The notes under the pieces: model-generated
Databases searched by the model: none
Told to the model about the DNA's origin: nothing
What the model saw: only the letters and a program-made list of their open reading frames with translations
Assembly (NCBI RefSeq): GCF_012927165.1
Contig: NZ_JABBGA010000008.1
Location: forward strand, 1 to 64,000
Origin: Zoogloea dura
GTDB lineage: Bacteria > Pseudomonadota > Gammaproteobacteria > Burkholderiales > Rhodocyclaceae
Direction of reading: 5' to 3'
Length of the DNA stretch: 64,000 bases
Part shown: in pieces, positions 17,357 through 24,106 of the stretch
Layout of the letters: every line of letters begins with the position of its first letter
Numbering within the stretch: the first letter of the stretch is position 1
Translations under genes and position numbers: made by a program

Positions 17357-17707
17357 TCAGCGCTTCTTGAGCAGGCCCTCGAGGCCCGCGAAGGGGGAAT
17401 GGGTGGCTGCCGCGGCAGGTTGCTTGCCGTCCACCTTGCCCTGGCTGGCCTCGAGCTGGCGCTGGTGCTCGTTGTCGTGGCAGTACAGGCAGAGGAGTTC
17501 CCAGTTGCTGCCGTCCGACGGGTTGTTGTCGTGGTTGTGGTCCCGGTGATGGACGGTCAGCTCGCGCAGGTTGGTGTGCGTGAACGTCCGTGCGCAACGG
17601 CCGCAGATCCAGGGATAGATCTTGAGGGCCTTCTCCCGGTAGCCCTCGGCGCGCTTGTCGGCGGCGCGGCGGGCTTCCAGGACGATGCGGTCGAGTTTTT
17701 CGCTCAT
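17357..17707 (-). CDS. HNH nuclease family protein (YajD-like)
   Basis: This 116-residue protein shows an HNH endonuclease core: a zinc knuckle CGRCARTF, the histidine pair LTVHHRDHNHDNNP, the central asparagine in GSNWELLCLYCH, and a final H in CHDNEH. E. coli YajD has the same layout and size and its role is unknown. The ATG overlaps the stop codon of the upstream arginase-aminotransferase gene as ATGA, so the two are co-expressed, but no functional link is evident. Confidence 0.88.
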   Translation of the reverse strand: MSEKLDRIVLEARRAADKRAEGYREKALKIYPWICGRCARTFTHTNLRELTVHHRDHNHDNNPSDGSNWELLCLYCHDNEHQRQLEASQGKVDGKQPAAAATHSPFAGLEGLLKKR

Positions 17708-19836
17708 GGGGTGACTCCGGCGGGGAAACGCTGGGCGAGGTCGGCAAGGGCCTCCTCGATGGTCCGTGCGGCGGCATCGAGTTCTGCTTCGGTGATGATG
17801 AGGGGCGGCGCGAAGCGCAGCACCTTCTCGTGGGTGTCCTTGGTCATCAGGCCGCGGGCGAGCAGCCATTCGGCGGCGATGCGCGCGGGGACGCGGTGCG
17901 TGTCGAGCTCCAGTCCGATCATCAGGCCGCGCCCGCGCACCTCGCGGATCAGCGGGTTGTCGATGGCCTGCAGGCGGGCCAGGAAGCGGGCGCCCAGTTG
18001 CGCCGAGCGTTCGATGAGCCGCTCTTCGGTGAGCACGGCCAGGGCCTCTGTGGCCACGGCGGCGGCAAGCGGGTTGCCGCCGAAGGTGGAGCCGTGATCG
18101 CCCGGCTGAAAGACCTGCATGACGCGCTCGTCGGCCAGGAAGGCCGCCACCGGCAGCAGTCCGCCGCCCAGGGCCTTGCCCAGGATGACGCCGTCGGGGC
18201 GCACCCCTTCGTGCTCGCAGGCCAGCAGGCGGCCGCTGCGGCCGAGGCCGGTCTGCACTTCATCGGCGATCAGCAGCACGTCGTGGCGGCGGCAGATCTC
18301 GGCGCAGCGGGCCAGCCAGCCGGCCGGCGGGATCACGATCCCGCCCTCGCCCTGGATGGGTTCGAACAGGAAGGCGGCTGTGTGCGGTGTGATGGCCGCC
18401 TCGAGCGCGTCGGCGTCGCCGAAGGGGATGCTGCGGAAGCCCGGCGTCAGGGGGCCGAAGCCATGGCGGTACTGCTCCTCGCTGGAAAAGCTGACGATGG
18501 TGGTGGAGCGGCCGTGGAAGTTGTTGTCGCAGACAATGATCTCGGCCTGGCCGTCGGGCACGTGCTTGATGGTGTGGGCCCACTTGCGGGCGGCCTTGAG
18601 GGCCGTCTCGACAGCCTCCAGGCCGGTGTTGACGGGCAGGGCCCGGTCGTAGCCGAGGAGGGCGGACAGTTGCTCCAGAAGCAGGGGCAGGCGGTCGTTG
18701 GAATAGGCGCGGGACGTGAGGGCCAGGCGCCCGGCCTGCTCGGTGAGGGCCTTCACCAGGCGAGGATGGCTGTGGCCGAAGCTGACTGCCGAGTAGGCGC
18801 TCATCATGTCCAGGTAGCGGTGGCCGTCCACGTCCCACAGCCAGACGCCCTCGCCGCGGCTGAAGACCACCGGCAGGGGCGCGTAGTTGCGGGCCCCGAA
18901 GAGCTCCTCGCGCTGGCGCAGGACCAGGCTGGTCGGGCCGAGCGCGGCGGCGGCCAGTTCGACGACCCGGCGCGCGCCGCTGCCGTCCCGGTCCCGCTCC
19001 GGGACGTACTCGACGATCTCGAAGGCCAGCAGGTCGGCGCAACTGCGCAGGCAGTGGAGGCTGTCGGTGAGCGCCTGGGGGTCTAGCCCGTCCGGCACCA
19101 GGCAGGTGGTGGCGGGCAGGCTGGCGCAATCCATGCTGTCCAGGTCCACCGACACGCCGAAGCCGGCGGTGCCCTCGCGGGCAATGGCCAGCGCGTCGGC
19201 CAGTACGGCGGGCAGGCCGCGCCGCTTGACCTCGGGCATGTAGAAGATGCGCACGCCGAGGCGTTCCAGCAGCGCTTTTTCTTCCGGCTCCCAGGAGCGG
19301 GCACCGACGATGGCGACGTGGGCTGGGTCCAGGTGGGGGCCGGGCAGCCCGGTGAGGCTCTCGTCGCCAACGCCGAGCAGTGCTGCCAGGGGCATGCCGT
19401 GGATGTTGCCGCTGTGGGTGGTCCGGTCGGTGTGGGCGTCCAGGTGGGCGTCGATCCAGATCAGGCCGAGCCTGCCGCGTGCTCCGAGAGTCCGGGAGAC
19501 ACCGCGCCAGGTGCCGGCCGCGATGGCGTGGTCGCCACCGAGCACCAAGGGAAGCTGGCCCGCCTGGCAGATGGCGGCCACTTCGTCGGCGAGGTCGTGG
19601 AGCAGAGCGCTCATGGTGCCGAGGCGTTCCTGCAGGGGCGGCTGCGGCGGCTTGGGGGCCGAGGGCTCGAGCAGGGTCTGCCACTGGGCGGGGATGCCGC
19701 GCTTGCGCAGCTGGTCGTCGATCCGGCCCTCCTTGAGGGCACGCGGGCCGGCGGCGGGGCCGAAGATCGGGGCGCCGAGACAGGAACCGACACCGATGAT
19801 GCGGACCGGGCGGGGGGGCGCGAGCGGGGCGGGCAT
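17704..19836 (-). CDS. Fusion protein: arginase + ornithine aminotransferase
   Basis: This 710-residue continuous protein carries two complete enzymes. Residues 1 to about 305 are a ureohydrolase of the arginase family with all six expected manganese ligands: H103 (GGDHA), D129, H131 and D133 (DAHLDAHT), D231 and D233 (SVDLDSMD). Residues about 306-710 are a fold-type I class III aminotransferase resembling ornithine aminotransferase, with NTGLEAVE, the cofactor aspartate D525 (ADEVQTGLGR) and the PLP lysine K554 (ILGKALGGG). Together they would convert arginine to urea plus ornithine, then ornithine to glutamate semialdehyde. There is almost no linker. The ATG at 19836 is favoured by AAAGGA six bases upstream; an ATG at 19842 is possible. 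Confidence 0.88.
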   Translation of the reverse strand: MPAPLAPPRPVRIIGVGSCLGAPIFGPAAGPRALKEGRIDDQLRKRGIPAQWQTLLEPSAPKPPQPPLQERLGTMSALLHDLADEVAAICQAGQLPLVLGGDHAIAAGTWRGVSRTLGARGRLGLIWIDAHLDAHTDRTTHSGNIHGMPLAALLGVGDESLTGLPGPHLDPAHVAIVGARSWEPEEKALLERLGVRIFYMPEVKRRGLPAVLADALAIAREGTAGFGVSVDLDSMDCASLPATTCLVPDGLDPQALTDSLHCLRSCADLLAFEIVEYVPERDRDGSGARRVVELAAAALGPTSLVLRQREELFGARNYAPLPVVFSRGEGVWLWDVDGHRYLDMMSAYSAVSFGHSHPRLVKALTEQAGRLALTSRAYSNDRLPLLLEQLSALLGYDRALPVNTGLEAVETALKAARKWAHTIKHVPDGQAEIIVCDNNFHGRSTTIVSFSSEEQYRHGFGPLTPGFRSIPFGDADALEAAITPHTAAFLFEPIQGEGGIVIPPAGWLARCAEICRRHDVLLIADEVQTGLGRSGRLLACEHEGVRPDGVILGKALGGGLLPVAAFLADERVMQVFQPGDHGSTFGGNPLAAAVATEALAVLTEERLIERSAQLGARFLARLQAIDNPLIREVRGRGLMIGLELDTHRVPARIAAEWLLARGLMTKDTHEKVLRFAPPLIITEAELDAAARTIEEALADLAQRFPAGVTP

Positions 19837-19914
19837 GATCATTCCTTTGACGCAGGGCGAAGCCGCGATGGCGGCGGGCTTATGACGCTTGGAGCACGGG
19901 GTGCTCCGCTTCGT

Positions 19915-21450
19915 TCAGTACAGCCAGCGCCAGGCTTCGAGCGTTGCGAGGCCGCCGAGCAATACCGCACAGGCAGCCAGCCAGAGGCGGGTGAGGCGCG
20001 CCTCGGCGGCGAGACGGGCGAGCTCGTCCCGGGTGCCGTCGTCCCGCGGGGTGGCCAGGGCCTGGTGCACCAGGCGCGGCAACTGGGGCAGGGTGGCGGC
20101 CCAGGAGGGGGCCTCGTCGCGGGCGTGGCGCAGGAAGGCACGCCAGCCGATCTGGTCGTTCATCCAGCGTTCGAGGAAGGGTTTGGCGGTTTTCCACAGG
20201 TCGAGGTCCGGATCCAGCTGGCGGCCGAGGCCCTCGATGTTGAGCAGGGTTTTTTGCAGCAGTACGAGCTGGGGCTGGACTTCCATCTCGAAGCGCCGGG
20301 CGGTCTGGAACAGGCGCAGCAGGGTCTTGCCGAAGGAGATGTCCTTCAGCGGCCGGTCGAATATGGGCTCGCAGACGGCGCGGATGGCCCCTTCGAACTC
20401 GTCCACCCGGGTGTGCGCCGGCACCCAGCCGGCCTCGATGTGGGCCAGGGCGACGCGCCGGTAGTCGCGCTGGAAGAAGGCCAGGAAGTTGGTGGCCAGG
20501 TACTTCTTGTCGGAGTCGTTGAGGCTGCCGATGATGCCGAAGTCGAGGGCGATGTAACGCCCGCGGGTGGGGCCCTCGGTGGCCACGAAGATATTGCCCG
20601 GGTGCATGTCGGCATGGAAGAAGCCGTCGCGGAACACCTGCGTGAAGAAGATCTCCACGCCGGCCCGGGACAGAGCCTTGAGGTCCACGCCGTGGGCCTT
20701 GAGCGCGTCGAGCTGGGAGATCGGCACGCCTTTCATGCGCTCCATGACCATCACGCCGGTGGTGCAGAAGTCCCAATGCACCTCGGGCACCACGAGCAGC
20801 TCGGAGTCCTTGAAGTTGCGCCTCAGCTGCGAGCAGTTGGCCGCCTCGCGCATCAGGTCGAGTTCGTCCCGGAGGTACTTGGAGAACTCGGCGACGACCT
20901 CCCGCGGCTTCAGGCGGCGGCCTTCCGGCCACACCTTCTCGAGCACCGTGGCGGCTGCGTCGAGCAGGGCCAGGTCGTGGGCGATGACCGGGGCGATGCC
21001 AGGGCGCAGGATCTTCACCGCCACTTCGGTGCCGTCGGGCAGCTGGGCGAAGTGCACCTGGGCGATGGAGGCGGAGGCGACGGGCTCCCGGTCGAAGCGG
21101 GCGAAGACCTCATCGGCGGGGCGGCCGTAGGCTTCCTGCAGCTGGGCCAGCGCTTCCGCGCTGGAAAAGGGCGGGACCCGGTCCTGCAGGCGTGCCAACT
21201 CCTCGGCGATGGCCGGCGGCAGCAGGTCGCGGCGGGTGGACAGCATCTGCCCGAACTTAACGAAGATCGGGCCGAGGGATTCGAGGGCCTGGCGCAGGCG
21301 GGCGCCGGAGGGCTGGTCGAAGGTCCGGCGGAAACGCGTCAGTCGCGCCAGCCAGGCCAGGCGGCCGGACGGCTCGTTGGTGAGGATCATCTGGTCGAGC
21401 CCGTATTTCAGGCTGACGGAAATGATCTTGACGAGTCGGAAGAGGCGCAC
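19915..21450 (-). CDS. ubiB: UbiB, ubiquinone biosynthesis protein kinase-like ATPase
   Basis: This 511-residue member of the ABC1/ADCK/UbiB atypical kinase family is needed for ubiquinone synthesis in proteobacteria. Visible elements are the family-specific [15 protein letters not shown], the ATP lysine in [19 protein letters not shown] for the catalytic loop and ALDFGIIG for the metal site, with a hydrophobic C-terminal membrane anchor. I chose the GTG at 21450 because it aligns with usual UbiB N termini; a TTG at 21504 is the upstream alternative. The other ubi genes are not in this window. Confidence 0.92.
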
Positions 21451-21532
21451 GGCGGCAGGCGAAAAGGAAAACGCGGATTGTGCCCGTAAAGGGCGGTGGC
21501 GCAAAGCGCGGGGCCGGATCGCCCGGCCCGGA

Positions 21533-22372: not shown

Positions 22373-24106
22373 ATGAGCGCCGATCAGAAGACCCAGCTTG
22401 CCGAACTCCTGCGTGCCGCCCTCCTTAGCGTGGCGCCCGAGCAGGCCGAAACCCCGATCAACCTGGAGCGGCCCAAGCAGGCCGGCCACGGGGACTTTGC
22501 AAGCAACCTGGCACTTCAGCTGGCCAAGCCCCTCAAGCGCAATCCGCGCGACCTGGCCAACCTGCTGCTGGCCGAGCTGCCCAAGTCCGGGCTGATCGCC
22601 AAGGCCGAGGTGGCCGGCGCCGGCTTCATCAATTTCACCCTGGTCTCCGACGCCAAGACCGCCGTCGTGGCGGCCGTTCTGGGGGCGGGTGAAGGCTTCG
22701 GCCGGGGCGTCAAGAGCGGGGTCAGGGTGCAGGTGGAGTTCGTTTCCGCCAATCCTACCGGGCCGCTTCACGTCGGTCACGGCCGCGGTGCAGCGTATGG
22801 TGCGTCCCTTTCCGACGTACTGGACTTCGCCGGCTTCGAGGTGACCCGCGAGTACTACATCAATGATGCCGGCCGGCAGATGGACATCCTGGCGCTGTCC
22901 ACCTGGCTGCGTTATCTCGATCTCTTCGGCATCGCCATCCCCTTCCCGCCCAACGCCTACCAGGGCGATTACGTCAAGGACATGGCGGCGCAGATCAAGG
23001 AGTCCCATGCCGACCGCTTCGCCCGGGTGAGCGCTGCCGCCGTGCTGGCCGATGCGCCCTCGGTCGAGGCCGACAAGGAAGGCCACCTGGATGCCCTGAT
23101 CGCCAACGCCAAGGCCCTGCTCGGCTCCGACTACGCATGGGTGCACGGCTTTGCCCTCACCGAGCAGCTCGGTGACGGCCGCGAGGACCTGGAAGGCTTC
23201 GGCGTGACCTTCGACAAGTGGTTCTCCGAGCGCTCCCTGTTCGACACCGGCCTGGTCGAGAAGGCCGTGGCCGAGCTCGAGGCTCGTGGTCACCTGTACG
23301 TGCAGGACGGTGCCAAGTGGTTCCGCTCCACCGCCTTCGGCGACGAGAAGGACCGCGTCGTGCAGCGCGAGAACGGCCTGTTCACCTACTTCGCCTCCGA
23401 CATCGCCTACCACGCCAACAAGTACGAGCGCGGCTTCGACCGCATCATCGACATCTGGGGCGCCGACCACCACGGTTACATCCCCCGCGTCAAGGGCGCG
23501 CTGCAGGCGCTCGGCCTGCCGCCCGAGAAGCTCGACGTGGCGCTGGTGCAGTTTGCGGTGCTGTACCGGGATGGCCAGAAGGCTGCCATGTCCACCCGCT
23601 CCGGCGAGTTCGTCACCCTGCGCGAACTGCGCAACGAGGTCGGCAACGACGCCTGCCGCTTCTTCTACGTGCTGCGCAAGGCTGACCAGCACCTGGACTT
23701 CGACCTGGACCTGGCCAAGAGCCAGAGCAACGAGAACCCGGTCTATTACATCCAGTACGCCCATGCCCGCCTGTGCTCGGTGCTCAACCAGTGGAACGGT
23801 GTGCTTGCCGACCTGGCCGAGGCCGATCTGTCGCGCCTCGACAACGAGCGTGAGCTGGCCCTGTGTGCCCGACTCACGGCTTTCCCGGAAGTCGTCCAGA
23901 ACGCGGCGTCCGACTACGCGCCGCACCAGATCGCCTTCTACCTCAAGGACCTGGCCGGCGAGTTCCACAGCTACTACAACGCCGAGCGCATGCTGGTGGA
24001 CGACGAGGCGCTCAAGCAGGCCCGCCTTGCGCTGGCCGCCGCCGTGCGTCAGGTCATCCGCAACGGCCTGCGCCTGCTGGGTGTTTCCGCGCCCGATTCC
24101 ATGTAA
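22373..24106 (+). CDS. argS: Arginyl-tRNA synthetase
   Basis: This 577-residue class I aminoacyl-tRNA synthetase charges tRNA-Arg. It has the N-terminal ArgRS-specific domain, the HIGH signature as NPTGPLHVGHGRG, a KMSKS-loop equivalent reading AAMSTRSGEF, and the all-helical DALR anticodon-binding domain at the C terminus (VIRNGLRLLGV). The ATG at 22373 gives the normal beginning. It leads a run with a SPOR-domain gene, dsbA and an SDR gene, an order I associate with Betaproteobacteria. Confidence 0.96.
   Translation: MSADQKTQLAELLRAALLSVAPEQAETPINLERPKQAGHGDFASNLALQLAKPLKRNPRDLANLLLAELPKSGLIAKAEVAGAGFINFTLVSDAKTAVVAAVLGAGEGFGRGVKSGVRVQVEFVSANPTGPLHVGHGRGAAYGASLSDVLDFAGFEVTREYYINDAGRQMDILALSTWLRYLDLFGIAIPFPPNAYQGDYVKDMAAQIKESHADRFARVSAAAVLADAPSVEADKEGHLDALIANAKALLGSDYAWVHGFALTEQLGDGREDLEGFGVTFDKWFSERSLFDTGLVEKAVAELEARGHLYVQDGAKWFRSTAFGDEKDRVVQRENGLFTYFASDIAYHANKYERGFDRIIDIWGADHHGYIPRVKGALQALGLPPEKLDVALVQFAVLYRDGQKAAMSTRSGEFVTLRELRNEVGNDACRFFYVLRKADQHLDFDLDLAKSQSNENPVYYIQYAHARLCSVLNQWNGVLADLAEADLSRLDNERELALCARLTAFPEVVQNAASDYAPHQIAFYLKDLAGEFHSYYNAERMLVDDEALKQARLALAAAVRQVIRNGLRLLGVSAPDSM

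Follow-up and report, generated by a model that had tools for sequence, protein, structure and literature searches.

The closest described counterpart of the locus analysed here is the bacterial rocF-rocD pathway, in which arginase and ornithine aminotransferase (OAT) of the same enzyme families carry out the same two reactions as proposed below, and which is encoded by adjacent, separate genes in related Pseudomonadota. The present gene differs from it in joining both enzymes in one chain and in its arginase half, where His and Glu stand for Asn130 and Asp183. PutA, a bifunctional proline dehydrogenase/glutamate semialdehyde dehydrogenase and a channelling enzyme, is another case in which successive steps of a catabolic route to glutamate are fused, but it serves later steps and its domains are unrelated to those of the arginase-OAT fusion. 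The cyanobacterial AgrE is likewise built from enzyme families other than these. According to excerpts of the report on it, AgrE is a bifunctional arginine dihydrolase/ornithine cyclodeaminase that joins removal of the arginine guanidino group to the use of ornithine within one chain; it makes proline and releases CO2 and ammonium, whereas the present fusion is predicted to give glutamate semialdehyde and urea (PMC8262935). In Fusobacterium, as far as excerpts of the source state, an arginase-family domain is joined to a PLP enzyme that uses ornithine, but with the reverse domain order and a decarboxylase in place of the aminotransferase; two metal-binding aspartates of its arginase domain are replaced and the domain is argued to be non-catalytic (PMC8503589). 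The preliminary description of our locus had pointed to no published fusion of arginase with OAT, and searches of open-licence PubMed Central papers likewise returned none in the text portions they cover, the available portions of PMC9309667 and PMC10407285 holding nothing on such a fusion.

We analysed a window of 64,000 nucleotides from Zoogloea dura (contig NZ_JABBGA010000008.1), which carries the fused gene on its minus strand (Table 1). We consider it likely, from the sequence, that the product is a naturally occurring bifunctional enzyme that breaks down arginine, with both activities in one chain. The longest open reading frame at the gene spans 17704-19842 and has 712 codons; its second ATG, at 19836, is most likely the true start, giving 710 residues, because AAAGGA lies six bases before it and an ATG occupies the equivalent position in 18 of the 19 congener loci printed, the 19th (L037) beginning inside the gene. 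Residue numbers below follow the 712-codon frame, and subtracting two converts them to the 710 numbering. A search of the window's own genome revealed no stop inside the fused frame. The uninterrupted frame, together with both Pfam domains over their cut-offs, bears out the earlier claim of a single 710-residue protein with two complete domains.

Table 1. Coordinates of the fused gene, its domains and key residues, and the flanking genes in the window (residue numbers of the 712-codon frame).
Feature	Position	Strand	Basis or remark
YajD-family HNH nuclease gene	17357..17707	-	NF008448 over cut-off; ATG overlaps TGA of the fused gene
Fused arginase-OAT gene, 710 codons and stop	17704..19836	-	single open frame; start by ribosome-binding sequence and congeners
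OAT domain, residues 316-699	17746..18897	-	Pfam PF00202; TIGR01885 over cut-off; model compared with solved OATs
K556 (K554 in the 710 numbering), PLP lysine	18175..18177	-	kept in 32/32 aligned fused proteins
Domain junction, residues 302-304	18931..18939	-	between last arginase helix and first OAT helix, secondary structure of predicted model
Arginase-family domain, residues 13-299	18946..19806	-	Pfam PF00491
DLD, metal ligands D233 and D235	19138..19146	-	kept in 32/32 aligned fused proteins
E185 in place of rat Asp183	19288..19290	-	E in 32/32 fused proteins; aligned to B. caldovelox arginase
H137 in place of rat Asn130	19432..19434	-	H in 32/32 fused proteins; aligned to B. caldovelox arginase
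DAHLD, metal ligands D131, H133 and D135	19438..19452	-	kept in 32/32 aligned fused proteins
H105, metal ligand (rat His101 position)	19528..19530	-	kept in 32/32 aligned fused proteins
AAAGGA, likely ribosome-binding sequence	19843..19848	-	6 bases before the ATG at 19836, the second ATG of the frame
ubiB, upstream of the fused gene	19915..21504	-	NF003404 and TIGR01982 over cut-off

The arginase half passed the Pfam Arginase model (PF00491) with 163.9 bits against a cut-off of 22. Modelled alone it reached a pLDDT of 93.6 and matched the arginase of Bacillus caldovelox with a TM score of 0.89-0.91, Bacillus arginases being the closest solved structures. Conservation was followed in an alignment of 32 fused proteins, comprising that of the window, those of 30 further loci (L023-L052, L037 without its first residues) and that of L124; the congeners G008, G010 and G016 are absent from it. 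The six metal ligands were identical in all 32, as were the equivalents of His141 and Glu277, and the PLP lysine of the second domain was equally invariant, so that the catalytic residues named in the preliminary description are intact throughout. The RocF equivalog model TIGR01229 was the best-scoring NCBIfam model for the domain, despite a score of 167.2 bits that misses the cut-off of 227.6; all 25 arginases scanned matched this model, the score below the cut-off being that of the window's member.

The departures from canonical arginases lie in the substrate pocket. Asn130 and Asp183 of rat and human arginase, which we take to contact the alpha-carboxylate and the alpha-amino group of the substrate, respectively, are replaced by His and Glu in all 32 fused proteins; mutants of both residues occur among the PDB titles that the arginase half matched. 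The separate arginases of the class have His at the first position in 20 of 21 and Glu at the second in all 21, and a comparison set of phylum and plasmid arginases (seven phylum-sample loci and four named alphaproteobacterial plasmid loci) has Asn in 10 of its 11 members and Asp in every one. Since the separate class arginases share the same His and Glu, the change of the pocket looks older than the fusion. At the Thr246 position, Cys is found in 21 of the 32 fused proteins, that of the window included, and Thr or Ser in 20 of the 21 separate class arginases. We read the arginase half as a distinct arginase subfamily with an altered substrate pocket, whose substrate is probably still arginine because the subfamily is so often tied to OAT; arginine specificity of the half itself is thus likely. 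Because two recognition residues differ and the TIGR01229 cut-off is missed, the label arginase given in the preliminary description rests on the fold, the metal site and the OAT partner, and it holds with this qualification. Stand-alone arginases of the altered-pocket subfamily were also seen as a second copy, besides the fusion, in the congeners G008 and G017 (L120 and L123).

In the OAT half, Pfam Aminotran_3 (PF00202) scored 403.5 bits against a cut-off of 30.5, and the OAT model TIGR01885 was passed with about 505-507.3 against 378.4 bits. The stricter OAT model NF003145 was the highest-scoring one, though its cut-off was missed (535.7 against 656 bits). The predicted structure of this half lay 1.1-1.3 Å from its seven best PDB matches, all of them OATs, with a target TM score of about 0.97. 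Seven further OAT residues besides the PLP lysine were identical in all 32 proteins, and the positions that we take to be Tyr55, Tyr85, Arg180, Glu235 and Arg413 of human OAT were kept in 32 of 32.

If the bifunctional reading is right, L-arginine would be hydrolysed at the two-metal site of the N-terminal domain to ornithine and urea, and the C-terminal PLP domain would transfer the delta-amino group of ornithine to 2-oxoglutarate, giving glutamate semialdehyde. Glutamate semialdehyde, present in equilibrium with pyrroline-5-carboxylate, would then be oxidised to glutamate by PutA, while urease would split the urea from the arginase step. Both activities, the substrate and the order of the reactions are what we infer from the architecture, the intact residues, the predicted fold, the conservation and the two-gene relatives. 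The genome of the window is consistent with such a route: it holds a urease alpha gene and a PutA-sized frame of 1228 codons with a Pro_dh domain, and a genome search found no AstA, which belongs to one arginine route. The fused gene is its only PF00491 gene and the only OAT found; among the best three class-III aminotransferases besides the fusion, which were scanned and rank above two weaker matches, two score as ArgD-type and one as BioA. Set against the bifunctional reading are the missed cut-offs of TIGR01229 and NF003145, the N130H and D183E replacements and the Cys at the Thr246 position, together with the higher omega of the arginase half, an arginase tree without one fused clade and a neighbouring dehydrogenase of the piperidine-6-carboxylate type, which are taken up below.

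Selection on the two halves was compared by a simple codon count. Omega was below 1 in both halves in all 17 pairs and was higher in the arginase half than in the OAT half in 15 of them, with values up to 0.61, the figure for the window and G416, which form the most distant pair. This faster evolution and the frequent Cys at the Thr246 position would suit an arginase domain that is a non-catalytic passenger or regulator of a protein in which only OAT works, for which the arginase domain of the Fusobacterium decarboxylase fusion, as described in excerpts of its report, offers a precedent (PMC8503589). We regard this as improbable, since, unlike in the precedent, no aligned protein has lost any of the six metal ligands or the equivalents of His141 and Glu277, and the genome has no other gene of the arginase family.

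The junction between the halves is very short. In the full-length model, which is confident (mean pLDDT 92.6, pTM 0.88), three residues separate the last arginase helix (288-301) from the first helix of OAT (305-315). The existence of relatives with separate genes could suggest that the gene is a disguised operon, yielding two polypeptides by an internal start or by cleavage, but no in-frame ATG, GTG or TTG occurs in the 90 bases around the window's junction and we give this explanation hardly any weight. A stronger form of the bifunctional reading, put forward in the preliminary description, is that the ornithine made by arginase reaches the OAT site without mixing freely. Arginase and OAT are both oligomeric, and their trimeric and dimeric symmetries could combine in the fused protein; this, the short junction with its confident model and the wide retention of the fusion in the family speak for channelling. 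The monomer model is silent on the oligomer, however, and channelling is not implied by fusion alone; for the analogous AgrE the release of ornithine is still debated, according to excerpts of the report (PMC8262935). On balance we hold channelling to be unlikely, albeit less so than the other alternatives, and the simplest benefit of the fusion would be equal dosage and co-localisation of the two enzymes. More speculative still, and with a small chance of being correct, is the idea that the altered pocket evolved alongside OAT to hand over ornithine, so that the fused protein would channel arginine to glutamate semialdehyde with a new mode of amino-acid recognition. If both halves work, the protein would be a naturally linked arginase-OAT, and channelling and equal dosage could be compared against close relatives with separate neighbouring genes.

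We also considered whether the substrate hydrolysed by the first domain is a guanidino amino acid other than arginine, as the replacements of Asn130 and Asp183 in the amino-acid recognition site of all 32 proteins and the missed arginase cut-off of TIGR01229 would allow. The genes around the fusion in other genomes bear on this. In 4 of 12 fused loci outside Zoogloea (L043, L044, L048 and L049), the fused gene is followed, in the same orientation, by one for an aldehyde dehydrogenase, two of these genes lying at 7093-8658 of L128 and 3214-4776 of L132. The two copies scanned passed NF050084 with 763 and 743 against 730 bits, which assigns them to piperidine-6-carboxylate rather than pyrroline-5-carboxylate dehydrogenase; either this family accepts glutamate semialdehyde as well, or the pathway acts on lysine-like compounds. 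In its most coherent version, the alternative would have homoarginine split to lysine and urea, lysine converted to aminoadipate semialdehyde, and the latter oxidised by a piperidine-6-carboxylate dehydrogenase of the kind found beside the fusion in other lineages. It is, however, countered by the OAT half, which passes TIGR01885 and retains the five human OAT residues listed above in 32 of 32, by the same arginase subfamily standing beside separate OAT genes in 21 class loci, and by the genome of the window, where the aldehyde dehydrogenase relative (57% identity) lies on another contig (C30). We judge a substrate other than arginine to be improbable. A sodium:solute symporter gene neighbours the fusion in L124 and L127 and also the L118 arginase.

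The preliminary description had named a frameshift or sequencing error as what would undo the fusion. Such an error was ruled out because the same single frame recurs in 21 of 22 congeners (G005 without its first residues; the remaining one, G010, is cut at the contig start) and in many genomes of the family. Among 296 genomes sampled from the family, 80, from 25 of 68 genera, matched at 1e-175, and in 77 of these, among them that of the window, the frame is open over 693 codons or more; shorter open frames were seen in three (G1280, G1331 and G1199), and a stop falls inside the match in four (G1226, G1150, G1308 and G1258). In the order sample 25 of 399 genomes matched at 1e-100, as 12 fusions (window included), 12 OATs alone and one contig-end fragment; a small number of further families within this order carry the fusion as well. 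The recurrence among congeners, family and order excludes that the fusion is peculiar to the genome of the window.

Beyond the order, 54 of 370 genomes of the class sample matched at 1e-110, and besides that of the window both domains are covered by seven match rows, of which six contain a stop and one (G494) has undetermined bases. The last, at locus L068, was set aside as a fusion outside the order, as its two undetermined bases lie at the junction and may hide a stop. The phylum sample gave 22 matches among 397 genomes, one row besides the window spanning both domains with stops between them. Only one of 45 matching plasmid records exceeded 80% query coverage, and there the two genes proved to be adjacent but separated by a stop. 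The genome searches covered the window's own phylum at strict E-value limits (1e-100, 1e-110, 1e-175), at which distant fusions would be missed. A contig search across all phyla, which finds close relatives alone, returned 15 loci: nine belong to Zoogloea and have the two halves in a single frame (L007 and L014 being cut at the contig end), and the six from elsewhere match by the aminotransferase only.

The gene arrangement of the relatives points to how the fusion arose. We analysed the first 29, besides the window, of the 54 matching class genomes: 21 loci carry adjacent separate genes for arginase and then OAT, seven have OAT only within the stretch examined, and the remaining one is L068 of G494. 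The order rocF then rocD is also found on two annotated alphaproteobacterial plasmids. Before trees were built, 21 loci were dropped as duplicates of a genome, named copies or fragments, and removal of 17 near-copies left 56 of 73 arginase rows and 84 of 101 OAT rows, of which three distant ones were further dropped from the final OAT tree (81 of 84 kept). In this tree the 19 fused rows fall in one clade with a support of 93/95, recovered in 93% of 200 bootstrap trees. In a quicker OAT tree the sister clade of the fused rows has 23 rows, 18 of which are adjacent rocF-rocD pairs. As the fused OATs form one clade whose sister clade consists mostly of adjacent separate genes, the fusion most likely derives from an adjacent rocF-rocD operon; it would have arisen by loss of the stop between the two genes, probably once, in an ancestor within the order.

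The arginase tree did not recover the fusion as one clade and needs four changes, or five when unfused single arginases are counted. A single clade including the unfused arginase of L118 was not rejected (AU p 0.206), and one fusion event from the operon with later losses seems the simplest account. The stand-alone arginase of L118 (5000-5869) comes from the same bacterial family, with a ubiB gene similar to the one next to the fusion at a distance of about 1.7 kb, and the best listed class-III aminotransferase match in its genome has 41% identity; on these two grounds L118 looks like a descendant of the fusion without its OAT half. The opposite loss, with the arginase half gone, appears to be represented by L054, an unfused OAT inside the fused OAT clade whose genome has no PF00491 match. 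The fusion also draws attention to an arginase subfamily whose substrate pocket has changed. At L063 and L064, in two genomes of the same taxonomic order, the separate genes are reversed, OAT preceding arginases of the canonical type.

The immediate surroundings of the fused gene are stable among the window and 19 congener loci, yajD following it in 20 of 20 and ubiB preceding it in 19, since the L037 stretch ends before that point. A gene named by eye as argS (arginyl-tRNA synthetase) lies at 22373-24106 of the window, divergent of ubiB and on its far side from the fusion, and was also seen in nine other loci, beyond ubiB wherever the stretch extends so far; its closeness to the fusion is probably coincidental. 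None of yajD, ubiB and argS has an evident part in arginine breakdown. The window contains no tRNA genes and no Rfam matches. The fused gene ends in a stop codon that overlaps the start of the yajD-like HNH nuclease gene as ATGA (17704-17707), which suggests coupled translation of two seemingly unrelated genes.
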